Assembly (NCBI GenBank): GCA_903845065.1
Contig: CAIMWH010000162.1
Span: forward strand, 1 to 39,966
DNA length: 39,966 bases
Source of the DNA: an uncultured Rhodospirillales bacterium
GTDB lineage: Bacteria; Pseudomonadota; Alphaproteobacteria; Acetobacterales; Acetobacteraceae
Reading direction: 5' to 3'
Below the pieces are notes generated by a model. That model was given only the letters and a program-made list of their open reading frames with translations, was not told the DNA's origin and did not search any database. Shown here one piece after another: positions 3,072 through 26,980 of this stretch; position 1 is the first letter of the stretch, and each line of letters starts with the position of its first letter. Both the position numbers and the translations under genes were made by a program.

Positions 3072-4811
3072 TCACCCTCCCGCGATTGCGATGACACGCC
3101 GCGCGGCGGCGATGGCGGCGAGGAAGCGGTTCTGGCCGCGCATCAGTTCCACCAGCGCCACCCGGCGCAGATGGGGGTCCGTCATGTCGGGCAGGTCGGC
3201 CGCCACGGCCAGCGTGGGGAGGGGCTGGACGGTGTAGGCGGGATCATGACGGAAGCGGGGCTGCTGGGTGTAGTTGATCGGCACCAGGATGCGGGCCAGT
3301 TCGTGCAGGGCGGCGTTGCGGGCGGGGAGCGGGGCTTGCTCCAGGGTGGCCAGCGCGGCTTTCAGGCCGAGCACCGCGGCGCGGGACGGGGTGAGGTCGG
3401 CCAGGCCCTTCGCGGCGGCCTGGTAGGTGTCGATGGTTTCGAGGAATTCGTCGGCGGTGGCTGACCAGTCGAACGGGAGCACCTCGGCGTTGGCGACCCG
3501 GAGCGCGGAGAGCAGGTAGATCTTCATGTCGGTCAGCAGGTTGTCGCGATCGGCGATTTCCAGGGTGTCGTTCTCGGTGTGCCAGGCGATGTTCGCGCCG
3601 CAGCCGGAGACGTCGTAGTAGCCTTTCTCGTGGCGCAGGGCCTCCGGCATGGTGGAGGACAGCATGAAGAAGCTGGGCAGGCCGATGTTGTTGAACGAGT
3701 AGTCGCCGGCCTGGGGCGGGCGCATGGTCTTGATCACCGCGTCCGGCACGATGTCGCGGATGACGCCGCTGGCGATGTGGGCGCTTTCGGTGAAGGCGCG
3801 GGTCTCGTGGTAGCTGGTCGCCCAGCGGCAGCCGGGGCTGTCGCAGTTGATCTGGGCGAGGCAGTTCTCGTCGAGGTCCTGGGCGAAGGCGTCGGTGAAC
3901 CACGTGGAGCCGGCGTAGCGGCCGGTAGAGTGGCCCGGCCACCAGGCGATTTTCACCGAGCGCTTGAGCGAGGCACGGTTTTTCCACAGCACCCGGGCGA
4001 GTTCCATCATCGTGGCGTCACCGGTGGCGTTGTCGCCGACGCCGACTTCCCACGAGTCGTAGTGGCCGTGCACGAGGGCGTATTTTTCCGGCTCCTCGGT
4101 GCCGGGGATGGTGACGACCGGGACCTTCTGGACGAACCAACCTTCGAGCAGGTCGGTGCGGATGGTGCAGGCGCCGCCGGACTGGGCGAGGGCGATGAGT
4201 TTCTGGCCGTCCGGGTTGTTGACGGCGATGACCGGGATTTTCGGCTTGCGGGCCATGTCCTGCAGGTCGGGCGAGCCCCAGATGGTGGTGCAGGTGCCCC
4301 AGTGGATATCGATGCCGGGGTTGACCGCGATGAGGCCGACGCCGCCCCATTCCTCGATCAGGCTGGTGAGCGCCGGGTTGCCGAAGCCCTGCATCACCAC
4401 GATGTTGCCGCCGACGATGCGCTTGACCTCCTCAACGGAGGCGATGGAGCCGCCGAACAGCGTTTTGATGTCGCGGTTGTAGCTGCGCAGGGCTTTCGGA
4501 TTGGCCTTCAGGCTCACCAGCTTGCCGGTGACGCCATCCGGCGCGGGCAGCGAGGAGGAGGGCGGTTTGGCGCGGTAGGCCACGTTGTCGGCGGTGACGG
4601 AGGCGGAGAGCGGGATGGAGAGGTAGATCTCGGGGGCGTGGACATCGACCGGGATGCCGGCCGCGCGCAGGCGCCCGGCGATGACGTCGGCCGCGGCGTT
4701 GACCTGCTCGGGGCGCCAGCGGTGCATGGTGGCGAAGGTTTCCACCAGTGCCCAGGGCATATCGAGGCTGACGTCGTCCAGGAATCGCTGTTCCGTCGCG
4801 GTGATGGCCAT
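3072..4811 (-). CDS. M28 family peptidase homologue with altered active site
   Basis: This 579-residue protein resembles zinc M28 aminopeptidases and glutamate carboxypeptidases, with a protease-associated insert at about 90-235. The metal-ligand positions HGHYD (His250, Asp252), GVGDNATG (Asp260), INCDSPG (Asp324) and WHTENDT (His411) are retained. The usual Glu-Glu pair (catalytic base plus zinc ligand, normally in a W-G-E-E-x-G context) is replaced by His294-Ser295 in WWPGHSTGRYAGS. I recall related proteins with GHSHGRY at this site, so this is probably a subfamily trait rather than decay. No signal peptide is visible. The start at 4811 has GGAGG 6 nt upstream. It is divergent from a peptide transporter, which suggests it acts on imported peptides or related amides. 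Confidence 0.85.
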   Translation of the reverse strand: MAITATEQRFLDDVSLDMPWALVETFATMHRWRPEQVNAAADVIAGRLRAAGIPVDVHAPEIYLSIPLSASVTADNVAYRAKPPSSSLPAPDGVTGKLVSLKANPKALRSYNRDIKTLFGGSIASVEEVKRIVGGNIVVMQGFGNPALTSLIEEWGGVGLIAVNPGIDIHWGTCTTIWGSPDLQDMARKPKIPVIAVNNPDGQKLIALAQSGGACTIRTDLLEGWFVQKVPVVTIPGTEEPEKYALVHGHYDSWEVGVGDNATGDATMMELARVLWKNRASLKRSVKIAWWPGHSTGRYAGSTWFTDAFAQDLDENCLAQINCDSPGCRWATSYHETRAFTESAHIASGVIRDIVPDAVIKTMRPPQAGDYSFNNIGLPSFFMLSSTMPEALRHEKGYYDVSGCGANIAWHTENDTLEIADRDNLLTDMKIYLLSALRVANAEVLPFDWSATADEFLETIDTYQAAAKGLADLTPSRAAVLGLKAALATLEQAPLPARNAALHELARILVPINYTQQPRFRHDPAYTVQPLPTLAVAADLPDMTDPHLRRVALVELMRGQNRFLAAIAAARRVIAIAGG

Positions 4812-4980
4812 GTGGTCCTCCGGTGCTGCTGGTGCGATGGCAACACCGATGGGCGCGGGAAGCAAGGTCACGTTGCGGCGTGGCGCCGGCTGGGGCGGCG
4901 GACATCCGAAACCCTCTTGAACATCGTGGCGACTTGCCCGTTCAATGCCGGCCAACGATCAAAACACGGGGGCTCTGACA

Positions 4981-6645
4981 ATGTGGCGATACCTGCTCGC
5001 ACTGACGGCGGCTGCACTACCAAGCCTCGCGCACGCCCAGGCGGCGGGCGATCCTATTCGGCCGTTGACGCTGATCACGCAGCCGCAGGCGGCGGACCCG
5101 CGCGAATACCAGGCGGCGCAGATTGTCGCGGAGGCCTGGCGCAAGCTGGGGCTCACGGTGAATATCCGGCCGCTGCCGGGCCAGCAGTTCAGCCAAGTGG
5201 TGTGGTACGAGCGGCAGCGCTGGGACATGACGACGTGGCAGATGGTGGGGCGGCCGGAGCGCGGCGATCCGGACGAGTTGACCTACAACCTGTTCGTCTC
5301 GGCCAACGCGGCCAACGGGTACGATTTCGTGGGCTACATCAATCCCGACTACGACAAGCTCGCCCAGGCGCAGCGGCAGGAGCTTGATCTGGACAAGCGC
5401 CGCGCGCTGGTGTTGCAAGCGCAGGAGATGATCAACGCGGACCAGCCGTACGGGTTCCTGGTGCATCCGAAGAACGTGGTGGCGTTCAACAAGTCGGTTT
5501 GGGACCCCAACAGCTTCGTGGCGCAGGCGGGCATCGGCATCCGCTCGACCTGGTCGTGGCTCAATGTCGCGCCGCTGGGGGCGCAGAAGGATGTGATCCT
5601 GAATTCGGTGGCGCCGCCGACCAACCTCAATCCGTTCAATATTCCGGGCGCGCAGGGCTCGTGGGCGACGGAGATGGCGTGGGACCGGCTGATGCGGGTG
5701 GGGCCGGATGGGCTGCCCAAGCCGTGGGCGGCGGAGAAGGTGGAGCGGCCGGACCCGCTCACCGTCAACATCACGCTGCGCAAGGGGATGATGTGGTCGG
5801 ACGGCAAGCCGGTGACCATCGATGACGCGGTGTTCAGCCTCGAAGCGCCGGGCTTTGCCGACAAGTCTCCGATGTACAAGCCGTTCGTGCGCAACATCGC
5901 CTCGGTGACCGCGACGGGGCCGGATACGCTGACGATCAAGCTGCACAATCCGGACGCGGCGTTCCTGATTTCGTCGCTCGCCAAGCTGAACCTCGCGCCG
6001 AAGCACATCTGGGCGCCGATCTTCGAGGACCTCAAGAGCAAGCCGCAGACCACCGAGAGCATCCAGGAGGAAAAGCCGGTCGGGTCCGGGCCGTTCCGCA
6101 TCGTGCGCGCGGTGCTGAACCAGGAGATCGTGCTGGAGGCCAATCCGAACCACTGGTCCAAGCCGAAGGTCAATCGCTGGATCATGCGGATCATGCCCAA
6201 CGTGGAGGCCTCGCTTGGGGCGCTGAAGTCGGGCGAGATCAACTTCCTGGCGGACTACACCGGCGATCCGCAGATCCTGCGCGATCTCGCCAAGGCCAAT
6301 CCGAATATCGTGATTTCCGAGGCGCTGGATATCGGCTTCCGCTTCCTCGCGTACAACGAGCGGCGGCCGCCGTTCGACAACAAGGGGTTCCGCAAGGCGC
6401 TGTCCGCGATGATCGACCGGCAGTTGCTGGCCGAGGATGCGTGGGGCGGGGCGGCGGAACCGTCCAACTCGTGGGTGTCGCCGGCGCTTGAGACGTGGGC
6501 GGCGAAGGGCATCGTGGACCGGGTGCCGGGGGCGGGCAGCCTGGCCGCCGCGCAGGGGTTCCTCAAGGACGCCGGCTTCGTGATGGTGGGCGGCAAGCTG
6601 CACTATCCGGCGGGGGTGAAGGAGACCACCACGCCGTACAACTGA
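4981..6645 (+). CDS. Circularly permuted family 5 (Dpp/Opp-type) substrate-binding protein
   Basis: This periplasmic solute-binding protein belongs to a peptide-type ABC importer. It has 554 residues with a signal peptide MWRYLLALTAAALPSLAHA at 1-19. The order of parts is unusual. Residues about 27-195 match the normally C-terminal lobe: QIVAEAWRKLGLTVNI (47-62), a WQMVGRPERGDPDE stretch (86-99), INPDYDKL (120-127) and RRALVLQAQEMINADQPYG (140-158). Residues about 203-554 then match the normally N-terminal part: NLNPFN (215-220), LRKGMMWSDGKPVTIDDAVF (266-285), GSGPFRI (368-374), RPPFDNKGFRKALSAMIDR (462-480) and a final FLKDAGF (527-533). The chain ends where the usual protein would continue into its second lobe. 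The frame is intact. It is followed 8 nt later by permease genes. The ligand is unknown, with peptides or amides likely. Confidence 0.9.
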   Translation: MWRYLLALTAAALPSLAHAQAAGDPIRPLTLITQPQAADPREYQAAQIVAEAWRKLGLTVNIRPLPGQQFSQVVWYERQRWDMTTWQMVGRPERGDPDELTYNLFVSANAANGYDFVGYINPDYDKLAQAQRQELDLDKRRALVLQAQEMINADQPYGFLVHPKNVVAFNKSVWDPNSFVAQAGIGIRSTWSWLNVAPLGAQKDVILNSVAPPTNLNPFNIPGAQGSWATEMAWDRLMRVGPDGLPKPWAAEKVERPDPLTVNITLRKGMMWSDGKPVTIDDAVFSLEAPGFADKSPMYKPFVRNIASVTATGPDTLTIKLHNPDAAFLISSLAKLNLAPKHIWAPIFEDLKSKPQTTESIQEEKPVGSGPFRIVRAVLNQEIVLEANPNHWSKPKVNRWIMRIMPNVEASLGALKSGEINFLADYTGDPQILRDLAKANPNIVISEALDIGFRFLAYNERRPPFDNKGFRKALSAMIDRQLLAEDAWGGAAEPSNSWVSPALETWAAKGIVDRVPGAGSLAAAQGFLKDAGFVMVGGKLHYPAGVKETTTPYN

Positions 6646-6652
6646 GCCGGCG

Positions 6653-7633
6653 GTGACGCGGCTTCTCCTGGAACGGCTTGGCCACCTCCTGCTGGTTTTG
6701 TGGGTGGTGGCCAGCCTGACCTTCCTGATGTTCCGGCTGATGCCGGGCGACCCGACGCTGAACTTCCTCTCGCCGAGTTTCGACGAGGCGACGCGGACGG
6801 CGCTGATGCGCAACTTCGGGCTGGATAAGCCGTTGTGGGAGCAATACTTCATCTATATCGCCCAACTGCTGCACGGCGATTTCGGCATGTCCTTCCTCCA
6901 GGCGCAGCCGGTTTCGGTGCTGTTGTGGGACGCGTTGCCGAATACGGCGGTGCTGACTGTGGTGTCCCTGGTGCTGGCCTATGCGATCGGGATCGTGGCG
7001 GGGGCGTTCATCGCGTTCCGCCGGGGCTCGGCGCTGGAGGCGGCGGTGATCCCGACGGCGCTGGCCACCCGCTCGGCGCCCGAGTTCTGGCTCGGCATGC
7101 TGCTGCTCGCGGTGTTCGCGTTCCAGTTGGGTTGGTTCCCCACCGGCGGGGCGGTGAGCCCGGGCGGCACGATGGGATCGGTGGTGGATCGGCTGCTGTC
7201 GGGGGATTTCTGGTGGCATCTGTGCCTGCCGGCGCTGACGCTGACGCTGTTCCTGCAGGGGCTGCCGTTGCTGCTGATGCGGGCCACCATGCTGGAGGTG
7301 CTGAACGACGAGTTCATCACCATGGCGCGGATGAAGGGGCTGTCGCGCTGGTCCATCGTGATGCGGCATGCCGCGCGCAACGCGCTGCTGCCGGTGGTGA
7401 CGGCGTTCGCGCTGGGGCTGGGGGCGTCGATCGGCGGCAATGTGGTGATCGAGACGGTGTTTGCCTGGCCGGGTATCGGGCGGGTGCTGGTGAACGCGGT
7501 GCAGTCGGCGGATTATCCGCTGGCGCAGGGGGCGTTTATCATGATCGCCTTCGTGCTGGTGGTGATGAATACGGTGGCGGATCTTGCCTATGCCGCGCTT
7601 GACCCGAGGGTGAGTGTTGGTGCGCGCAAGTAG
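6653..7633 (+). CDS. ABC transporter permease, DppB/OppB family
   Basis: This is an inner-membrane subunit of a peptide-type importer (326 residues, about six membrane segments). The N-terminal signature LFRLMPGD-like stretch appears as MFRLMPGDPTLNF, the next periplasmic part has GLDKPLWEQY, and the EAA loop that docks on the ATPases reads EFITMARMKGLSRWSIVMRH (about 218-237). The start codon is GTG, 7 nt after the stop of the binding-protein gene, so the two are very probably cotranscribed. Its 3' end overlaps the next permease gene. Confidence 0.95.
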   Translation: MTRLLLERLGHLLLVLWVVASLTFLMFRLMPGDPTLNFLSPSFDEATRTALMRNFGLDKPLWEQYFIYIAQLLHGDFGMSFLQAQPVSVLLWDALPNTAVLTVVSLVLAYAIGIVAGAFIAFRRGSALEAAVIPTALATRSAPEFWLGMLLLAVFAFQLGWFPTGGAVSPGGTMGSVVDRLLSGDFWWHLCLPALTLTLFLQGLPLLLMRATMLEVLNDEFITMARMKGLSRWSIVMRHAARNALLPVVTAFALGLGASIGGNVVIETVFAWPGIGRVLVNAVQSADYPLAQGAFIMIAFVLVVMNTVADLAYAALDPRVSVGARK

Positions 7634-8477
7634 AATCCGCCGGTTCCTGGCGAGCGAGCCGTTCGCGGTGGTCGGTGTGGCGATCTACGCGGTGATCATC
7701 GCGGCGGCGCTGCTGGCGGACCGGATCGCGCCGCATGATCCGCGCGAGATCCTGCGCATCAACCGGCGCATCGCGCGGTATGCCCCGATGTCGGGCGATT
7801 TCTGGCTGGGGACCACGGCAGGCGGGGCGGATATCGCGAGCCAGTTGATCCATGGTGCCCGCGCGGCGCTGGAGGTGGGGCTGACGGCGGCGCTGGCGGT
7901 GGTGGCGATCGGCACGCTGCTGGGGCTGCTCGCGGGGTATCTGGGCGGCTGGGTGGACAAGGTGTTGACCAGGCTGGCCGATATTGTGCTTGGGCTGCCG
8001 TTCCTGCCCACCATGCTGGTGCTGGCGGCGTTGACGCGGCCGGGGGTGTGGACGGTGATTGTCACGGTATCGCTGTTGTTGTGGCCCAATACGGCGCGGG
8101 TGATCCGCTCGCAGGTGCTGTCACTGCGGGAGCGGGCGTGGGTGGAGGCGGCGCGGGTGACCGGCTGTTCCAATACCCGCATCATGTTCGTGCACATATT
8201 GCCGCAGGTGCTGCCGTTGGCGGCGCTGTATGGCTCGGTGGCGATCGGCTGGGCGATCCTGGCGGAGGCGGCGGCCTCGTTCCTGGGGTTTGGCGACCCG
8301 GACGTGGTGAGCTGGGGGGTGATGTTGCAGGATGCCTATGCCAACCAGGCGATGTCCCGCGGGGCGTGGAACTGGTTCGCGCCGCCGGGGGCCGCCATCC
8401 TGATGATGGTGCTGGCGGGGTTCATGATTTCGCGCGGCTCGGAAAAGCTGCTGTTCCCCAAGCTGGGGGACAAATGA
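7614..8477 (+). CDS. ABC transporter permease, DppC/OppC family
   Basis: This is the second membrane subunit of the importer (up to 287 residues). It has the N-terminal cytosolic helix and first membrane segment of DppC proteins, a DPREILRINR segment, FWLGTTAGGADIASQLIHGA (the conserved LGTD-G-D-x-x-S region), and an EAA loop ERAWVEAARVTGCSNTRIMF. Candidate starts are GTG 7614, TTG 7617 and GTG 7620. GAGGG at 7606-7610 gives the best spacing to 7620, so the protein may be two residues shorter. All overlap the 3' end of the upstream permease gene. The stop is 2 nt from the stop of a PEP-CTERM gene on the other strand, which separates this gene from its ATPases. Confidence 0.94.
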   Translation: MLVRASRIRRFLASEPFAVVGVAIYAVIIAAALLADRIAPHDPREILRINRRIARYAPMSGDFWLGTTAGGADIASQLIHGARAALEVGLTAALAVVAIGTLLGLLAGYLGGWVDKVLTRLADIVLGLPFLPTMLVLAALTRPGVWTVIVTVSLLLWPNTARVIRSQVLSLRERAWVEAARVTGCSNTRIMFVHILPQVLPLAALYGSVAIGWAILAEAAASFLGFGDPDVVSWGVMLQDAYANQAMSRGAWNWFAPPGAAILMMVLAGFMISRGSEKLLFPKLGDK

Positions 8478-8479
8478 GC

Positions 8480-9307
8480 CTACATCTTGGCCTTGCGCAG
8501 CAGGCGGCGGCGCCGGGCGAGCATGCCACCGCCGAGCAGCCCGGTGGCGAGCAGCGCCACGCTGGCCGGTTCCGGGGTGTCACTGGCGGAGAGCAGCGAG
8601 ATGTCATCGGTGGCGGCGGCGATGAGGTCGGGCGTGGTGCCGTAGGCGAAGCCGACATCGGTGATGCTGGTCAGGCTGAAGCCCACCGGCAGGCCGGACC
8701 AGGTGAAGACCACGCGGTCCTGTTCGAGGGGCACCCTGGCATCGCCATCGGCGCGGGCCACGTTGTAGCCGCTGCCGGCGATGGAGAATGCGACGCCATC
8801 GAGCGCCGGGACGCCGTAGAGGGCGGGGCCGCCGAAGGTGGAGATGGCGCCCGGGCCGAAATTTGGCACCACGCCGGTGTAGCCGATGGCGGCCACGCCA
8901 TATCGCGCCGGAGTGATCACCTTGCCGGAGAACCCGACCAGGGATTGCTGGTAGCCCCATTCGCCGCCCACGTTGGTGGTGATGGCGCCGCAGGCGAAGG
9001 GCAGGCAGCCGCCGGGGTTGATCACGCCGCCGGGTGCGAACGCCGATACCGGGGCGAGGGCCGGCGCGCCCACCACATCGAAGAACAGGCCGCTCAGCAG
9101 GTTGCCCGGTACGTAGCGGCGGTTGCTTGTGTCCGTGTTGACCAGTTCGAGCACCAGGTCCGTCCCGGTGACGCTGAAGGTCGCGGTTGCGCTCAGGGTT
9201 CCCATGGCGCCGTTGAAGACCACGGTCGCGTTGGCGATTCCGATGCCGATCGGCAGGGAAGCGGCAAGAACAGTGGCGTATTTTGCGATTTTATTAAAAT
9301 CAATCAT
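8480..9307 (-). CDS. PEP-CTERM sorting domain-containing exported protein
   Basis: This is a 275-residue secreted protein. It has a signal peptide (MIDFNKIAKYATVLAASLPI and on to about residue 26), a beta-rich middle (for example TATFSVTGTDLVLELVNTDT), and a C-terminal PEP-CTERM signal. That signal is PEPAS at 245-249, a hydrophobic stretch VALLATGLLGGGMLA, then ARRRRLLRKAK. Exosortase and its partners recognise this signal to anchor or process surface or exopolysaccharide-associated proteins; no exosortase gene is in the window. The function of the middle region is not recognised. AGGA lies about 9 nt before the ATG at 9307. The gene lies antiparallel inside an ABC transporter operon and has an AT-rich upstream region, which suggests insertion. 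Confidence 0.88.
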   Translation of the reverse strand: MIDFNKIAKYATVLAASLPIGIGIANATVVFNGAMGTLSATATFSVTGTDLVLELVNTDTSNRRYVPGNLLSGLFFDVVGAPALAPVSAFAPGGVINPGGCLPFACGAITTNVGGEWGYQQSLVGFSGKVITPARYGVAAIGYTGVVPNFGPGAISTFGGPALYGVPALDGVAFSIAGSGYNVARADGDARVPLEQDRVVFTWSGLPVGFSLTSITDVGFAYGTTPDLIAAATDDISLLSASDTPEPASVALLATGLLGGGMLARRRRLLRKAKM

Positions 9308-9600: not shown

Positions 9601-10590
9601 ATGCTGCTCTCGGTGCGTGATTTTGCGGTCCATTACCGCTCGGCCGCGGGGACGGTGCGGGCGGTGGATGGAGTCGACCTCGATGTGCCCGAGGGCTCCA
9701 TCACCGGGCTGGTGGGGGAGAGCGGGTGCGGCAAGTCCACTTTGGGGCGGGCGCTGATGGGGGTGTTGCCGGATGTGGCACGGATTGCGGGAGGCAGCGT
9801 GGTGTTCGAGGGGCGGGACATCATCCCGCTTTCGGAGCGCGACCGGCGGGCCATCCGGTGGCGGCGGATGGCGTTCATTCCGCAGACGGCGATGAACGCG
9901 CTCGATCCGGTGCAGCGGCTTGGGGCGCAGATGCTGGAGGTGTTGCGCGAGCGCGGCGGGCTGGGGCGCGCGCCGGCGCTGGCCCGCGCGGAGGATCTGT
10001 TCCGGCAGGTCGGGCTCGATCCGGCGCGGCTGTCGGATTATCCGCACCAGTTTTCCGGGGGCATGCGGCAGCGTGCGTCCATCGCGCTGGCGCTGGCGCT
10101 CAATCCGGCGCTGGTGATTGCCGACGAGCCGGTGACCGCGCTCGATGTGATCGTGCAGCGCCAGGTGCTGGATGTGATGCGGGACCTGCAGTCGCGGCTT
10201 GGCTTGGCGATGATCCTGGTGACGCATGACATGGCGGTGGTTGCCTATGCGTGCGACCGGGTGGCGGTGATGTATGCCGGGCGGATTGTGGAGGCGGGCA
10301 CGGCGGCGGAGGTGCTGGAGCGGCCGCGGCATCCTTATACGATGGGGCTGACCCATGCGTTTCCGGACGTTCATGGCGGGACCTCGGCGCTGGTGCCGAT
10401 CGAGGGGGCGCCGCCGATCCTGATCGATCTACATCCGGGGTGCCGGTTTGCGCCGCGCTGCCCGTTCGCGCAGGCGCGGTGCCGGAGCGAGACGCCTGGG
10501 CTGGTGGATGGTGTGGCGTGCTTCCGCGCCGGCGAGGCGGAGACGCTGCGCGATGCCGCCGCACGACCAGAAACCTGGGCCGCGCCATGA
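9601..10590 (+). CDS. Peptide-type ABC transporter ATP-binding protein, DppD/OppD family
   Basis: This is a cytosolic ATPase subunit (329 residues). Walker A GESGCGKST is at 39-47, the Q-loop region reads FIPQTAMNALDP (92-103), the signature is FSGGMRQR (151-158), Walker B is LVIADEP (171-177), and the switch histidine is in VTHD (207-210). The C-terminal extension of oligopeptide ATPases is present with its cysteine-rich GCRFAPRCPFAQARC. The ATG at 9601 directly follows the AT-rich region and lacks a strong ribosome site; a GTG immediately upstream (9598) is an alternative. It presumably serves the permeases at 6653-8477 although a PEP-CTERM gene now intervenes. Confidence 0.95.
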   Translation: MLLSVRDFAVHYRSAAGTVRAVDGVDLDVPEGSITGLVGESGCGKSTLGRALMGVLPDVARIAGGSVVFEGRDIIPLSERDRRAIRWRRMAFIPQTAMNALDPVQRLGAQMLEVLRERGGLGRAPALARAEDLFRQVGLDPARLSDYPHQFSGGMRQRASIALALALNPALVIADEPVTALDVIVQRQVLDVMRDLQSRLGLAMILVTHDMAVVAYACDRVAVMYAGRIVEAGTAAEVLERPRHPYTMGLTHAFPDVHGGTSALVPIEGAPPILIDLHPGCRFAPRCPFAQARCRSETPGLVDGVACFRAGEAETLRDAAARPETWAAP

Positions 10591-10729: not shown

Positions 10730-11683
10730 ATGAGCCAGGTGATTTCCGCGCAGAATCTTGGGAAGACGTTTCATGCGCATGGGCGCACCGTGCATGCGGT
10801 GCGGGATGTTTCGCTCAGCGTGGCGGCTGGGGAGGCGGTTGGGATCGTCGGGGAGAGCGGCTGCGGCAAGACCACGACCGCGCGGATGCTGCTGCGGCTG
10901 GAGGACCCCACGGCGGGGCGGATCGTGTTCGAGGGGGAGGATATCACCCATCGCCGGGGGGCCGCGCTGCTGCCGTTTCGGGCGCGGGCGCAGTTAGTAT
11001 TCCAGAACCCGTTCGATGCGCTCAACCCGCGCTTTACCATTCGCCGGGCCCTGGCCGAGCCGCTGGCCAATTTCGGGGTGCCGCGCGCCGAGCATGCCGG
11101 GCGGATCGAGGCGGTGATGCAGCGGGTGCGGCTGACGCCCTCGGCCTCGTGGCTGGACCGGCATCCGCATGAACTTTCGGGCGGGCAATTGCAGCGCGTG
11201 GTGCTGGCGCGGGCGCTGATCCCCGGGCCGCGGCTGATCGTGGCTGATGAGCCGGTTTCGATGCTCGATGTGTCCGTGCGGGCCGGCATCCTCAATCTGC
11301 TGCGGGCGGCGCGGGACGAGTTGGGGCTGGCGGCGGTTTATATCAGCCATGACCTCGCGCTGATCCGGTATGTCTGCGAGCGTACGCTGGTGATGTATCT
11401 TGGGGCGGTGGTGGAGGAAGGGCCGACGGTCGATCTGATCGAGCGGCCGCATCATCCCTATACGCGGGCGCTGGTGGCGGCCGTGCCGGTGCCGCGCATC
11501 GAACAGGACCGCGCGCCGCTGCCGATCAAGGGCGCGTTGTCGGATGCGCCGCTCGTCGGCCCCGGCTGTGCGTTTCGGGATCGTTGCCCCGCCGCCTTCG
11601 GGCGCTGCGCTGTTGAAACCCCGCCTTTGCGGGAATTGTCCGGGCGCCGCAAAGTCGCCTGCCACCTGGGAGACCCCGCATGA
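10730..11683 (+). CDS. Peptide-type ABC transporter ATP-binding protein, DppF/OppF family
   Basis: This is the second ATPase subunit (317 residues). Walker A GESGCGKTT is at 41-49, the Q-loop region LVFQNPFDALNP at 89-100 is typical of DppF, the signature is LSGGQLQR (149-156), and Walker B is LIVADEP (169-175). The C-terminal oligopeptide-ATPase domain has GCAFRDRCPAAFGRC. AAGGA lies just before the ATG at 10730, an unusually tight spacing. Its stop overlaps the hyuB-like start as ATGA (11680-11683), so uptake and the hydantoinase-type enzyme are translationally coupled. The repeat element just upstream separates it from the partner ATPase gene. Confidence 0.95.
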   Translation: MSQVISAQNLGKTFHAHGRTVHAVRDVSLSVAAGEAVGIVGESGCGKTTTARMLLRLEDPTAGRIVFEGEDITHRRGAALLPFRARAQLVFQNPFDALNPRFTIRRALAEPLANFGVPRAEHAGRIEAVMQRVRLTPSASWLDRHPHELSGGQLQRVVLARALIPGPRLIVADEPVSMLDVSVRAGILNLLRAARDELGLAAVYISHDLALIRYVCERTLVMYLGAVVEEGPTVDLIERPHHPYTRALVAAVPVPRIEQDRAPLPIKGALSDAPLVGPGCAFRDRCPAAFGRCAVETPPLRELSGRRKVACHLGDPA

Positions 11684-13437
11684 CCGCCTGCGACCCTGTG
11701 ACGCTGGAAATCATCCGTGGCGCCATCCGCGCCGCGCAGGCGGAGATGGAGGCGTTGATCGAACGCACCGCCATCTCCGCCTTCATCCGCGAGAAGAAGG
11801 ACTTCTATACCGCGCTGTTCGATGCGGACGGGGTGATGTGCGTGGGCTCGAACGTGCCGGTGTTCGGCGATATCTGCGGCCCGGTGTTCGCCAAGTTCCC
11901 CATCGAGACCATTCGGCCCGGGGACCTGTATTGGTACAACGACTGCTATGGCAGCCGGGGTGCGGTTTCGCATTCCAACGACCAGGTGTTCCTGGCGCCG
12001 GTGTTCCATGAGGGCGCGCGAGTGGCGTTCGTGATGGGGTGGGCGCATTTCGCCGATATCGGCGGCATCCGGCCGGGCTCGATCAGCCCCGATGCGACCG
12101 ATATTTTCCAGGAACGCATCATCATCCCGCCCACCAAGCTGATCGACCAGGGGGTGACCAACGAGGCGACGCTCGATATTTTCTATCGCAACTCGCGCTA
12201 TCCGGCGACGGCGCATGGCGATACCCGGGCGCTGATGGCGAGTGTGGAGCTTGGCATCCGGCGGATGGCCGAGATCGCCGGGCGGTTTGGGCCGGCGATC
12301 CTGGCGGATGCGCTGCACCAGTTGTTCGAGCGCACCCGCACGCTGGTGCGCAGCCGCCTGCGGGAGACGTTCCCGGTGGGCACCCATCGGTTCACCGACG
12401 CGCTCGATACCGACGGGCATGGCTCCGGGCCGGTTCACCTGCGGTTCGCGCTGACCCGCACGGCGGATGACCGGTTCATCCTCGATATGTCCGACAGCGA
12501 TGACCAGACCAAGGGGCCGGTGAACTTCCTGATGAACCGGGATATGCCGGGTATGGCGCTGGGGCTGTATTTCATCGGTGGCGATCCGGCGCAGGTGTGC
12601 AACGCGGGGGGGCCGCGCGCCATCGACGAGATCATCCTGCGGCCTGGTTCGGTGTTGCAGCCGAATTTTCCGGCGCCGCTGGGCATGCGGGGCATGACGA
12701 TGATGCGGGTGCTGGCGGCGCTGAACGGGCTGATCAATGTGGCGGGGACGCCGGCGCCGGCGGCGCATTCGGCCTATGTCATCATCCTGTTGCGTGGCAC
12801 GGCGGGCGGCAAGCCGTTCCTGATGTCGGACGGGATCGGCGTGGGGTATGGCGCGCGGCCGACGGCGGATGGCATCGATACGGTGTATTTCGTCGCGCAG
12901 GAGAACTATCCGGTCGAGTTCCTCGAACTCGGCTATCCGGTCCGGCTGACCACCTATGGGGTGAACCCCGACAGCGGCGGGCCGGGGCGGTATCGCGGCG
13001 GCTGCGGCATCGTGCGCGAGTATGAGGTGATGGCGGAGGAGGCGGTACTGGCGGTGCGCATCGACAGCGTGACCAATCCGCCGTGGGGGGTGGGCGGCGG
13101 GATGTCGGGGGGCGTGGGGCGGGCGGTGATCAACCCGGGGCAGGCGGATGAGCGGGTGCTGAAGCCGCTTTCGGACGGCAATGTGGTCCGGCGGGGCGAG
13201 ATCCTGCGCATCGAGACCGGCGGCGGCGGTGGCCATGGCCATCCGTTCGATCGGCCGGCCGGCGAGGTGTTGCGCGACGTGGCGGATGGGTTCGTGACCG
13301 CCGAGGCGGCCGCCACCCATTACGGCGTGATCATCCGCGACCATGCCGTCGACGAAGCCGCCACCCTGGCCCGCCGCACCGGCCGGCCCGCTGCCCGCGC
13401 CTTTCATCGCCTGGAGTATGTCGATGCCATCGCCTGA
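11680..13437 (+). CDS. Hydantoinase B / oxoprolinase family protein (HyuB-type subunit)
   Basis: This 585-residue protein is the B subunit of ATP-dependent hydantoinase / 5-oxoprolinase / acetone-carboxylase-like enzymes. It opens with DPVTLEIIRGAIRAAQAEME and contains RTAISAFIREKKDF, PGDLYWYNDCYGSRGAVSHS, and a glycine-rich GGGGGHGHPFDRP near the C-terminus, all typical of HyuB. Such enzymes use ATP to open cyclic amides such as 5-oxoproline or hydantoins. The substrate cannot be read from the sequence. It overlaps the ATPase gene upstream by 4 nt and the HyuA gene downstream by 14 nt, so the three are one operon. Confidence 0.93.
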   Translation: MTACDPVTLEIIRGAIRAAQAEMEALIERTAISAFIREKKDFYTALFDADGVMCVGSNVPVFGDICGPVFAKFPIETIRPGDLYWYNDCYGSRGAVSHSNDQVFLAPVFHEGARVAFVMGWAHFADIGGIRPGSISPDATDIFQERIIIPPTKLIDQGVTNEATLDIFYRNSRYPATAHGDTRALMASVELGIRRMAEIAGRFGPAILADALHQLFERTRTLVRSRLRETFPVGTHRFTDALDTDGHGSGPVHLRFALTRTADDRFILDMSDSDDQTKGPVNFLMNRDMPGMALGLYFIGGDPAQVCNAGGPRAIDEIILRPGSVLQPNFPAPLGMRGMTMMRVLAALNGLINVAGTPAPAAHSAYVIILLRGTAGGKPFLMSDGIGVGYGARPTADGIDTVYFVAQENYPVEFLELGYPVRLTTYGVNPDSGGPGRYRGGCGIVREYEVMAEEAVLAVRIDSVTNPPWGVGGGMSGGVGRAVINPGQADERVLKPLSDGNVVRRGEILRIETGGGGGHGHPFDRPAGEVLRDVADGFVTAEAAATHYGVIIRDHAVDEAATLARRTGRPAARAFHRLEYVDAIA

Positions 13438-15460
13438 CCCGCAGCTTATGTCCGTCGCCGTCGATATCGGCGGCACCTTTACCGACATCACCCTCCAGGA
13501 CCCGGCCAGCGGCCGCGCCTGGCGGGCCAAGACGCCGTCCACGCCGGCCGATCCGTCGCGGGCGTTCCTGACCGGGGTGCGGCTGGCGCTGGAAGCGGCG
13601 GGGGCCGCGGCGTCCGACATCGGGCGGGTGCTGCATGGGACGACGGTGGCGACGAACCTCATCCTGGAGGGCAAGGGGGCGCGGTCCGCGCTGATCACCA
13701 CGCAGGGGTTTCGCCATGTGCTGGATATCGGGCGGCAGGATATTCCGCGCCGCGCCAATCTGTATGCCTGGATCAAGCCGCTGCGGCCGGTGCCGCCGTC
13801 CCGCGTGCTGGAGGTGATCGAGCGGGTGGGGCCGGGCGGGACGGTGCTCACGGCGCTCGATGAGGCCAGCGTTGTTGCCGCCGCCGAGGCTTGCCGGCGG
13901 CTGGGAGTGCAGTCGGTGGCGATCTGCCTGCTGCATAGTTTCGCGCATCCGGCGCATGAGCGGCGGGTGGCCGAGATGCTGCGGGCGGCGCTGCCGGGGG
14001 TGGCCGTCACCGCGTCGGTGGATGTGTTGCCGGTGGCGCGGGAATACGAGCGGAGCCTGGTCACCATCCTCAATGCCTCGGTGATGCCGGCGATCTCGAC
14101 CTATGTGGCGCGGCTGGAGGATCGGCTGGCGGAGGCCGGGATCGCGGCGCCGCTGCTGCTGATGCAATCGAACGGCGGGGTGGCGGGGGCGGCGGCGATC
14201 CGCCGGGCGCCCGCGGTGACGGCGCTGTCAGGCCCGGCGGCCGGGGTGGTTGGCGCGCGCGAGGTGGCGCTGGCCGCCGGGATCGCCAATATCATCACGG
14301 TGGATATCGGCGGCACGTCGGCCGATATCTGCCTCATCAAGGATGGCCGGATCGGGCTGACGCAGCATGGCAAGGTGGGCGAGTGGCCGCTGTGCCTGCC
14401 GATGGTGGATATGGTGACGGTGGGTGCCGGTGGTGGCTCGATCGCCCGGGTGGGGGATGGGGCGCTGACGGTTGGGCCGGCCAGCGCGGGGGCGGAGCCG
14501 GGGCCGGCGTGCTATGGCCATGGCGGCACCGAGGCCACCGTGACGGACGCCCATATCGCGCTTGGCCATCTGCCCCCAGAACTGCTGGGCGGGCATATGC
14601 GGCTTGATCCACGGGCGGCGGAGGCGGCAATCCAGGCGCGGGTGGCGACGCCGCTCGGGCTGCCGCTGCATACCGCCGCGCGGGGTATCCTGGCGATCGC
14701 CGACAGCAACATGGTGGGCGCGATCCGGGTGGTGTCAGTGGAGCGCGGGCATGATCCGCGGGATTTCGCCCTGGTGCCGTTCGGCGGCGCGGGGCCGCTG
14801 CATGGTTGTGCGTTGGCGGAGTTGCTTGGCATCACCACGGTGCTGGTGCCGCCGGCGCCGGGGGTGCTGTGTGCCGAGGGGCTGCTGGCGGCCGATCTGC
14901 GGGCGGAGTTCCAGCGCGCGCTGCCGATCGCCGGGCGGCCGGATGCCGGGGCTGCCAGCGCCATTGTCGCGGCGCTGCGGCAGGAGGCGGAGGCGTGGTT
15001 CAACGAGGAGCGCGTGCCGGTGGCGGACCGGGCGTGCGAGGACATCGCGCTGATGCGCTACGAGGGCCAGGGCGGGGAACTCGCGGTGCCGTGGGATGGT
15101 GATGCGGATGCCGCGGTTGCGGCGTTCAATGCGGCGCACCAGGCGCTGTATGGGTTTGTGCTGGCCGCGCCGGTGGAACTGGTCACCCTGCGGGTGGAGG
15201 CGACGGGGCATCTGCCGCCGCCGGTGATCGCGGCGCCGGCAGCGATCGGCACGGCGGCGGCGGGCACGCGGATCATCCATTTTGCCAGCGGGCCGCGCGA
15301 GGCCGCGGTGCTGGATCGGGCCAGCATCGCGCCTGGCACGGTGCTGGCGGGCCCGGCGATCCTGACCCAGCTTGACGCCACCACGCTGATCACGCCGGGC
15401 TGGACCGCCGAGGTGCATCCCTCCGGCTCGTTGATCCTGCGGCGGGATCAGGCGGGATAG
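13424..15460 (+). CDS. Hydantoinase A / oxoprolinase family protein (HyuA-type subunit)
   Basis: This 678-residue protein is the ATP-binding subunit that pairs with HyuB. The N-terminal phosphate loop is VDIGGTFTD (13-21), followed by VLHGTTVATNLILEGKGA and a second actin-fold phosphate motif VDIGGTSADI, with the FGGAGPLHGCALAELLG segment towards the C-terminal third. The ATG at 13424 was chosen because GGAG at 13413-13416 lies 7 nt upstream. The ATG at 13418 is too close to that site, and 13448 remains possible. The length matches stand-alone HyuA proteins. It is coupled to hyuB by overlap, and its 3' end overlaps the convergent DapA-like gene by 13 nt. Confidence 0.94.
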   Translation: MPSPDPQLMSVAVDIGGTFTDITLQDPASGRAWRAKTPSTPADPSRAFLTGVRLALEAAGAAASDIGRVLHGTTVATNLILEGKGARSALITTQGFRHVLDIGRQDIPRRANLYAWIKPLRPVPPSRVLEVIERVGPGGTVLTALDEASVVAAAEACRRLGVQSVAICLLHSFAHPAHERRVAEMLRAALPGVAVTASVDVLPVAREYERSLVTILNASVMPAISTYVARLEDRLAEAGIAAPLLLMQSNGGVAGAAAIRRAPAVTALSGPAAGVVGAREVALAAGIANIITVDIGGTSADICLIKDGRIGLTQHGKVGEWPLCLPMVDMVTVGAGGGSIARVGDGALTVGPASAGAEPGPACYGHGGTEATVTDAHIALGHLPPELLGGHMRLDPRAAEAAIQARVATPLGLPLHTAARGILAIADSNMVGAIRVVSVERGHDPRDFALVPFGGAGPLHGCALAELLGITTVLVPPAPGVLCAEGLLAADLRAEFQRALPIAGRPDAGAASAIVAALRQEAEAWFNEERVPVADRACEDIALMRYEGQGGELAVPWDGDADAAVAAFNAAHQALYGFVLAAPVELVTLRVEATGHLPPPVIAAPAAIGTAAAGTRIIHFASGPREAAVLDRASIAPGTVLAGPAILTQLDATTLITPGWTAEVHPSGSLILRRDQAG

Positions 15461-25414: not shown

Positions 25415-26980
25415 ATGAAGCGCCGCACCCTTCTTGCCGCCGCTGCCGTTGCCCCGCTGGCCCGCCCTGCTTTGGCACAGGGTTCGAACCGGGTGCTGCG
25501 GTTTGTGCCCCAGGCGGACCTCGCCAACCCCGATCCGGTATGGTCCACCACGGTGATCGCCGCCGAGCACGCCTACCTGGTGTGGGACAAGCTGTATGAC
25601 CTCGACGAGAAGCTGATCCCGCAGAAGCAGATGGTGGGGGCGGACGAAGTTTCCGCCGATGGGCTGACCTGGAAGCTGATGCTGCGCGAGGGGCTGAAGT
25701 TCACCGACGGGGCGCCGGTGCGCGCGCAGGACTGCATTCCCTCCATCATGCGCGCGGCGCGGCGGACGCCGATTGTCGAGAGCTTGATGGCGGCCACCAA
25801 CGAGTTGAGCGCGCCCGATGACCGCACGCTGCTGTTCCGGCTGAAGAAGCGCTACACGCTGCTGCCGTTTTCGCTCTCCAGCGCGTTCATCATGCCCGAG
25901 CGGATGGCCAAGACCGATGCGTTCACCATGATTTCCGAGCATGTCGGCAGCGGGCCGTACAAGTTCGTGCCTGCGGAGTGGAAAGCCGGCGCCGGGGCGC
26001 TGTATGTGCGCAACGAGGGCTATGTGCCGCGCGCCGAGCCCGCCAGCATGTGGGCGGGCGGCAAGGTGGCCCATTTCGACCGGATCGAGTGGCACACCAT
26101 CCCCGATCCCTCCACCGCGGCGGCGGCGTTGCAGCGCGGCGAGGTGGACTGGGTGGAGACGCCGCTGCTCGATCTGGTGCCGAGCCTGCGCAAGTCCCCG
26201 GGGGTGAAGGTGGCGACGTTCGACACGCTGGGCAGTTGGATGATGATGGCGTTCAACCACTACCAGGCGCCGTTCGACAACGTGAAGCTGCGGCGCGCGG
26301 TGCTGGCGGCGGTGAACCAGACCGATTTCGTCGATGCCGTGGTGGGGGACCAGGCCGACCTGGGGCATACCGGGGTGGGGTATTTCCCGCCGGCCTCGCC
26401 CTATTCCAGCACCGCCGCGATGCCGCCGCTGAACGGGCCGCGCGACCTGGCGGCGGCGCGCAAGATGGTGGCCGAGAGCGGCTACAAGGGCGAGCCGATC
26501 GTGCTGATGTCACCGTCGGACCAGCCGTCGATCCAGCAGAGCGCACAGATCGCCAACGCGCTGATGAAGTCGATAGGGCTCAACGTCCAATACACCAGCC
26601 TGGACTGGGCGACGATGCTGCAGCGGCGCAATTCCAAGGAGGCGCCGGAAAAGGGCGGGTGGTCGGCGTATTGCACGAGCTGGGTGGGGCTTTCGGTGGC
26701 GAGCCCGGCGACGCATCTGCCGTTGCGCGGGGACGGGTTCAAGTCCAACGCGTGGTGGCGGCCGATGAACGAGGCGATGGAGCATCTGCGCGACGCCTGG
26801 TTCGATGCGCCCGATCTCGCGGCGCAGCAGAAGATCTGCGAGGACATCCAGCGCATGGCGTTCAGCGAGGTGCCGTGCATTCCGCTCGGGCTGACCTTCC
26901 AGCCGACGGCGTTCCGCGACACGCTGTCGGGGTTCGCGCGGGCGCCCTATCCGGCGTTCTGGGGGGTGAAGAAGGGGTAG
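25415..26980 (+). CDS. Family 5 ABC transporter substrate-binding protein (orphan, normal domain order)
   Basis: This is a 521-residue periplasmic binding protein of the peptide/nickel type. The signal peptide MKRRTLLAAAAVAPLARPAL carries a twin-arginine-like RRTLL start, so Tat or Sec export is possible. Domain order is conventional: LMLREGLKFTDGAPVRAQDC early, GSGPYKFVPAEWKAG in the middle, APFDNVKLRRAVLAAVNQTD, then the second-lobe segment QSAQIANALMKSIGLNVQY. GAAGGA lies about 8 nt before the ATG at 25415. No permease or ATPase genes adjoin it, so it must share a transporter encoded elsewhere or have lost its partners. A repeat element follows directly. Confidence 0.92.
   Translation: MKRRTLLAAAAVAPLARPALAQGSNRVLRFVPQADLANPDPVWSTTVIAAEHAYLVWDKLYDLDEKLIPQKQMVGADEVSADGLTWKLMLREGLKFTDGAPVRAQDCIPSIMRAARRTPIVESLMAATNELSAPDDRTLLFRLKKRYTLLPFSLSSAFIMPERMAKTDAFTMISEHVGSGPYKFVPAEWKAGAGALYVRNEGYVPRAEPASMWAGGKVAHFDRIEWHTIPDPSTAAAALQRGEVDWVETPLLDLVPSLRKSPGVKVATFDTLGSWMMMAFNHYQAPFDNVKLRRAVLAAVNQTDFVDAVVGDQADLGHTGVGYFPPASPYSSTAAMPPLNGPRDLAAARKMVAESGYKGEPIVLMSPSDQPSIQQSAQIANALMKSIGLNVQYTSLDWATMLQRRNSKEAPEKGGWSAYCTSWVGLSVASPATHLPLRGDGFKSNAWWRPMNEAMEHLRDAWFDAPDLAAQQKICEDIQRMAFSEVPCIPLGLTFQPTAFRDTLSGFARAPYPAFWGVKKG

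Follow-up and report, generated by a model that had tools for sequence, protein, structure and literature searches.

A naturally circularly permuted family 5 ABC substrate-binding protein in an uncultured Rhodospirillales bacterium, with relatives in several bacterial phyla and on haloarchaeal plasmids

Introduction

A natural circular permutation of a two-lobed ABC binding protein has been described for the glucose-binding protein MglB-2 (Tp0684) of Treponema pallidum, which was designated "Type Ic / Cluster Bc" (PMC4990184). That report describes a cluster B sugar-binding fold in which the first three strands of the N-lobe are moved to the C-terminus, with a fourth hinge crossing. Ligand binding and a ligand-induced conformational change were reported there, and membrane tethering was raised as a possible reason for the topology. 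The permuted halves of a Thermotoga ribose-binding protein (PMC9815098) likewise represent a permutation within the periplasmic-binding-protein fold, although their structures were solved to study fold evolution, and they are not a natural family of the type considered here.

The window analyzed in the present study is a stretch of 39,966 nucleotides from an uncultured Rhodospirillales bacterium, and it contains a substrate-binding protein (SBP) of family 5 (SBP_bac_5). Both MglB-2 and the window SBP are naturally circularly permuted ABC binding proteins, the latter two-lobed by prediction, and both are kept across several lineages. In contrast to MglB-2, the window SBP has a predicted fold of family 5 (cluster C), roughly one third of its chain is moved, and the break lies inside the C-lobe; it thus shares the circular permutation that characterizes Cluster Bc, but not the cluster B fold with N-lobe strands 1-3 moved. 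DppA, AppA, and OppA (SBP_bac_5, Cluster C) have their fold in common with the window SBP, as judged from sequence and prediction, and also the operon partners DppBCDF. On the other hand, the window SBP differs from these proteins in its rotated segments and in the residues at DppA positions R383 and D436, which are mostly Q and E in the permuted proteins and vary in normal SBPs too. The permuted systems are further distinguished by a DppB lineage of their own and by HyuAB and M28 genes near many members. No permuted family 5 SBP was found in the literature searched, which was mostly open-access with few subscription papers or preprints, and none was described at the matching passages of PMC2588589, PMC2265533, PMC10326533, PMC7701253, and PMC3454389. 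Natural permutation of two-lobed ABC SBPs is therefore already known in cluster B, whereas the family 5 case seems to be new in the literature searched.

Results and Discussion

Segment order and predicted structure

The SBP gene (Table 1) was a single open frame, and its ATG was read directly at 4981. The encoded protein matched Pfam SBP_bac_5 (PF00496) with 215 bits (gathering score, 32.4). The best stretch comprised residues 246-547 at profile positions 2-288 of 368, and a second stretch was also present. Because the best stretch stopped at position 288, the normal C-terminal part was absent from the C-terminus of the protein. All aligned permuted members (55/55) matched SBP_bac_5, the only family listed for them. 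A normal-order profile of 532 positions, which was built in this analysis from loci taken as normal-order, matched residues about 202-535 at positions 42-366 (224 bits) and residues about 29-179 at positions 372-517 (64.5 bits, E 1e-20). The same swap was observed against B. subtilis AppA (PDB 1xoc), where residues 204-497 corresponded to chain positions 23-310, and residues 44-171 to 375-497. The canonical order of SBP_bac_5, N-lobe and then C-lobe, was thus absent according to the AppA alignment, the profile, and the rotation described below. The second SBP of the window (25415-26980), which the initial annotation had named as an internal control in standard order, indeed matched SBP_bac_5 positions 10-349 in one stretch.

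When the window SBP was rotated in silico, its best single match to the normal-order profile rose from 224 bits over positions 43-366 to 297 bits over positions 44-517. The rotated sequence also scored higher in all 55 permuted homologues (median gain of 70 bits in the best single-domain score), whereas normal-order proteins rotated at 68% of their length scored lower in 57/57 cases and higher in 0/57. The permuted order was absent from the other SBP ORFs scored as controls (0/58), up to 25 of which had gone into the normal-order profile.

The chain from residue 27 to residue 554 (528 residues; alignment of 55 members) was predicted by AlphaFold2 with a pLDDT of 95.1, a pTM of 0.91, and no residue below 50, so that the structure prediction suggested as a check in the initial annotation gave one confident fold. 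Secondary structure assigned to the model by DSSP showed that the C-terminal segment ended with the FLKDAGF helix followed by two short predicted strands. An order-bound Foldseek search with the full model matched family 5 SBPs with E-values down to 6e-18, and the TMq was 0.42-0.51 over 314-397 columns (50 PDB matches listed). A low TMq is what an order-bound search should yield for a permuted chain, of which just one segment can be aligned in sequence order. The model therefore points to one confidently predicted fold, both parts of which match family 5 SBPs, the structural identity being indirect. The family profile matched 113 PDB sequences, and none of the best 60 spanned it in the permuted order; their best stretch lay within profile positions 169-517 of 523 and corresponded to an early or middle region of the chain.

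Sequence comparison and structure prediction together confirm that the frame encodes a naturally circularly permuted family 5 (DppA/OppA-type) ABC binding protein with its C-terminal third first. The permutation and the uninterrupted frame proposed in the initial annotation are accordingly borne out, the former by domain order, rotation, structure prediction, homologues, and tree, and the coordinates were right.

Table 1. Features of the permuted SBP gene and its neighbors in the window
Feature	Coordinates	Strand	Basis
Circularly permuted family 5 (SBP_bac_5) SBP, 554 aa	4981..6645	+	Profile, PDB alignment, rotation, predicted structure
Putative export signal MWRYLLALTAAALPSLAHAQAA	4981..5046	+	By eye from translation
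N-terminal segment, residues 27-198: second part of C-lobe and final tail of a normal SBP	5059..5574	+	Profile, DppA alignment, PDB matches
Short linker, about residues 196-204, from old C-terminus to old N-terminus	5566..5592	+	Inferred from DppA alignment
C-terminal segment, residues 203-554: N-lobe and first part of C-lobe	5587..6642	+	Profile 42-366, DSSP of model
DppB-type permease, cognate, lineage of its own	6653..7633	+	Pfam BPD_transp_1
DppC-type permease, cognate, start codon uncertain	7614..8477	+	Pfam BPD_transp_1
DppD-type ATPase (ABC_tran and oligo_HPY), start codon inferred	9601..10590	+	Pfam, scanned from 9595
DppF-type ATPase (ABC_tran and oligo_HPY)	10730..11683	+	Pfam
HyuB / hydantoinase B-oxoprolinase-type subunit	11680..13437	+	Pfam Hydantoinase_B; best NCBIfam caprolactamase beta, below cut-off
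HyuA-type subunit, start codon inferred	13448..15460	+	Best NCBIfam caprolactamase alpha, below cut-off; best PDB N-methylhydantoinase
M28-family hydrolase, divergent to SBP gene, start codon inferred	3072..4823	-	Pfam Peptidase_M28

Position of the new and old termini

Alignment with E. coli DppA placed the new C-terminus after the helix that ends at about DppA precursor residue 368, and the new N-terminus at about residue 378, the N-terminal segment corresponding to DppA about 378-533. At the junction, residue 195 aligned with DppA 533, residue 199 with about DppA 25, and residue 210 with DppA 36, in agreement with the segments initially annotated (27-195, and then 203 onward). As DppA 533 directly precedes DppA 25-36 in the window SBP, a very short linker joins the old ends, and the alignment suggests that it has roughly ten residues or fewer. 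The domain limits of DppA place residues 368-378 inside the C-lobe, between a helix and a strand. The new ends therefore lie in the C-lobe and outside the hinge, and the hinge position that had been proposed for them is ruled out. The lobe assignment also had to be revised, because the N-terminal segment is only the second part of the C-lobe with the final tail, not the second lobe, and the C-terminal segment extends beyond the first lobe into the C-lobe. In terms of mechanism, the old N- and C-termini would have been joined by the short linker, and new termini would have opened in the helix-strand loop of the C-lobe. All permuted rows inspected in the alignments had the break at this one common loop.

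Three loci (L020, L021, and L204) represented a distant permuted subtype, in which the C-lobe segment is preceded by approximately 45 additional residues and the C-terminus is extended. An overlap of the kind left by tandem duplication was sought between the N-terminal extension and the C-termini of these loci, and no consistent signal was obtained: one of nine end comparisons was low (17/500 shuffles), and the other eight ranged from 145 to 353/500. The duplication route suggested in the initial annotation is conceivable, with no footprint of it claimed from these comparisons.

Distribution among genomes and plasmids

Among 60 genomes of relatives, all 4 of the same genus carried the permuted SBP (88-90% identity), as did four others of the same family (50-76% identity; one fragmented and one truncated at the end of its contig). 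Three more distant relatives matched over their full length at 28-30% identity, one of them in the same family and two elsewhere in the class. A junction-region query against one genome per species (84,980 species) retrieved at least 322 relatives, and among the best 80, which were examined, 77 were permuted and 3 had broken frames, the query itself selecting for the permuted order. According to record titles, these 80 loci belonged to Pseudomonadota (58), Chloroflexota (9), Bacillota (4), Thermomicrobiota (2), Spirochaetota (2), and Deinococcota, Actinomycetota, and Sysuimicrobiota (1 each), with 2 unassigned; numerous records are metagenome bins, and misbinning could account for some of the rarer taxa. 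The isolates Brevibacillus reuszeri and Neorhizobium galegae were among the permuted loci. Of 72,556 plasmid records, 20 had a match spanning 80% or more of the query, including six haloarchaeal ones, and the four genes checked for order (two haloarchaeal) were all permuted. Annotated plasmids with a permuted SBP came from Halalkalicoccus jeotgali, Natrononativus, Ketogulonicigenium, and Roseomonas, and the annotated plasmid records among the 20 matches label the proteins plainly as "ABC transporter substrate-binding protein." The homologue search that had been recommended thus recovered the same order in several bacterial phyla and on haloarchaeal plasmids.

Of 398 genomes sampled from the phylum, the own genome was the only one with a whole-junction match among the matches listed (listed by rank, with only 7 candidates scored in most genomes). 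The family therefore looks patchy, and a gene widespread in the phylum is ruled out within the matches listed. Permuted members were as low as 25-30% identical. Rows below 82% identity were kept for the alignments (55/87), and the broken-frame loci L076, L083, L111, and L133 were left out. These four frames and that of L016, all in draft records, may reflect sequencing errors or pseudogenes. Four metagenome bins titled Asaia bogorensis (L073, L075, L079, and L138) carried permuted SBPs with junctions 46 to 77% identical to that of the window SBP, and their species label therefore looks unreliable.

With the SBP as query, the own genome gave 108 matches at E<=0.001, some of which are pieces of one gene; 108 family 5 SBP matches in one genome is an unusually large number. 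One of them (L225, contig C81, 12291-15633) was a second permuted SBP, 90% identical and located beside an M28 gene. A permease relative was sought within about 8 kb of it and was not found; this copy may be an orphan SBP, a strain variant, or an assembly effect.

Operon neighbors and permease partners

The SBP gene was followed by genes for DppBCDF-type transporter components and HyuAB-type subunits, and an M28-family gene was located upstream in the opposite orientation (Table 1). The HyuAB-type neighbors resembled caprolactamase, N-methylhydantoinase, and 5-oxoprolinase-type enzymes (PMC6061476), with NCBIfam caprolactamase scores of 490.3 and 214.8 bits, below the cut-off of 1000 in each case. 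The M28 hydrolase had weak similarity to glutamate carboxypeptidases in the PDB. A gene for an exosortase-dependent surface protein (XDD4 family, 123.5 bits, cut-off 40; 8480-9307, minus strand) was located between dppC and dppD and splits the operon.

The 80 permuted loci contained relatives of the window's DppB (74), DppC (72), DppD (71), DppF (60), M28 (52), HyuB (39), and HyuA (32), as detected with the window's own genes, a choice of queries that favors near relatives. M28 was missing from some 28 and HyuB from 41 of these loci, several of which were short. The 20 best-ranked normal SBP places among the 108 matches of the own genome, many of them shorter than the test loci, served as controls; DppB and DppC relatives were each present in 14 of them, and M28, HyuA, and HyuB in none. 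Two haloarchaeal plasmid operons (L150 and L151) harbored genes for creatininase and M20-type proteins, or for amidohydrolase, RraA, and Rid-type proteins, instead of M28 and HyuB, a further pointer to cyclic amides.

The 30 top-ranked DppB loci from 299 family genomes comprised 28 with an SBP and two that showed none. All 28 SBPs fit the permuted type; 25 of these were scored, and the other three were partial and ended at the permuted C-terminus. DppB identity fell after these 30 loci from at least 58% to about 42% or less, and at the next-tier loci (about 40% identity; 20 of the next 22 listed) the SBP was permuted in 5, normal in 13, and absent in 2. Together with the DppB tree below, the 30 top-ranked loci indicate that the DppB permeases of permuted SBPs form a separate lineage that tracks the order of the SBP; the mixture of permuted and normal SBPs along the DppB scores of the next tier counts against this.

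Phylogeny and alternative explanations

In a tree of SBPs in which the permuted rows were rotated, 34 permuted proteins fell on one side of a branch and 44 normal proteins on the other (SH-aLRT 100). This tree used 34/57 permuted and 44/56 normal rows, the normal SBPs being a selected set, and it was computed by a quick method, the rotated rows having been aligned to a profile derived from normal SBPs. The permuted-system permeases were also on one side of a DppB tree (65 proteins, support 96), whereas they separated weakly in a DppC tree (64 proteins, support 40), in which one long-branched normal row stood beside the permuted rows; both permease trees were drawn from 65 hand-picked loci with a simpler model, and long branches meet in them. 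Since the permuted proteins cluster, as do their DppB permeases, a single origin of the permuted SBPs is probable; their patchy spread afterwards probably involved horizontal transfer across phyla. Among the alternatives, repeated permutation of different SBP lineages at a permissive loop retains the most weight, and it would be favored by the low identity between some members, by the L020/L021/L204 type with its N-terminal extension and longer C-terminus, by deep forks with support of 90, 90, and 89 inside the permuted group, and by the weak DppC branch. Nevertheless, all 34 permuted rows lie on the same side of the fully supported branch, the break is at one common loop in the rows inspected, and the DppB permeases group as well, which makes repeated origins improbable.

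The copy at L225, beside an M28 gene and with no permease relative within about 8 kb, would fit an SBP-like protein that has lost its transport function and acts as a sensor or chaperone instead. However, a DppB- or DppC-type ORF started just downstream of the SBP in 64 of the 75 loci with enough sequence, and the DppB lineage tracks SBP order; a non-transport role is thus quite unlikely, and a function in import is preferred.

Residues 27-195 could also be read as an additional or unrelated domain placed ahead of a complete SBP in normal order, given that the best single Pfam stretch covers residues 246-547 only. This stretch lacks the normal C-terminal part, though, the N-terminal segment matches the missing part, and rotated sequences give a single near-full-length match. 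When modelled alone, the N-terminal segment had a pLDDT of 89.7 and a pTM of 0.73, and all 12 PDB chains that it matched at E<=0.001 were family 5 SBPs (TMq 0.50-0.59). The reading as an unrelated domain, which the initial annotation had named as a possible refutation of permutation, is ruled out by these profile, rotation, and PDB results, and we regard it as very improbable. An error in the assembly (the other refutation named there) or in the binning of a single metagenome-assembled genome has a negligible chance, since the draft nature of the genome (380 contigs) is outweighed by the recurrence of the same order in 77/80 loci of other records, with isolates and annotated plasmids included, which rules it out.

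Ligand, export, and proposed function

In E. coli DppA, R383 and D436 hold the carboxyl and amino groups of the dipeptide, respectively, and meet the scoop loop of DppB (PMC12136057). The window SBP has Q36 and E93 at these positions, and the permuted rows have Q at the R383 position in 46/57 and E at the D436 position in 51/57. In the alignment, the DppB proteins of the permuted systems lacked the ER pair that E. coli DppB has in its scoop loop. Normal systems, too, often lack R383 and the ER pair, and therefore neither loss marks the permuted ones. Judged from these residues, the permuted SBP would not be a DppA in the strict sense. It scored 79.9 bits against the NCBIfam model for DppA (NF043070, cut-off 1005), whose canonical order also prevents a single continuous match to a rotated chain. 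A lipobox-like pattern was present in 13/91 permuted members; eight were judged real by eye, and five were upstream of the likely start. In the eight members, the lipobox would put the anchor next to the C-lobe.

On this evidence, the window gene very probably encodes the putatively exported, naturally circularly permuted SBP of a Dpp/Opp-type ABC importer (SBP-DppBCDF). The protein would close on its ligand and dock on DppB/DppC like DppA, in the manner of a Venus flytrap. With lower confidence, the M28 and HyuAB-type hydrolase genes at many loci suggest that the ligand may be a cyclic amide or an N-blocked amino-acid compound rather than a free dipeptide, which the M28 hydrolase and the HyuAB-type enzymes, related to ATP-dependent lactam hydrolases, might open or trim in the cytoplasm.

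A broader scenario is tentative, and we consider the balance to be somewhat against it as a whole. In this scenario, one ancient switch of topology would have given rise to a distinct importer lineage in bacteria and haloarchaea, in which the permuted SBP would have co-evolved with its own DppB/DppC. The move of the N-terminus to the C-lobe may have transferred the tether from one lobe to the other in lipid-anchored members, where the lipobox precedes the C-lobe, as well as the engagement of the DppB scoop loop, and the system might serve a cyclic-amide or N-blocked substrate opened by the HyuAB-type enzymes.

Reports of two-lobed binding proteins permuted as a whole in nature seem to be rare, the one example found belonging to cluster B. 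Routine annotation hides permuted SBPs, as the labels of the plasmid records show. The recurrence of HyuAB-type and M28 genes offers a clue, amenable to testing, that Dpp-type importers may handle a new class of substrates. Furthermore, the permuted family 5 set, which extends over several phyla and haloarchaea, represents a natural experiment on how chain order relates to domain closure, export, lipid tethering, and permease docking.
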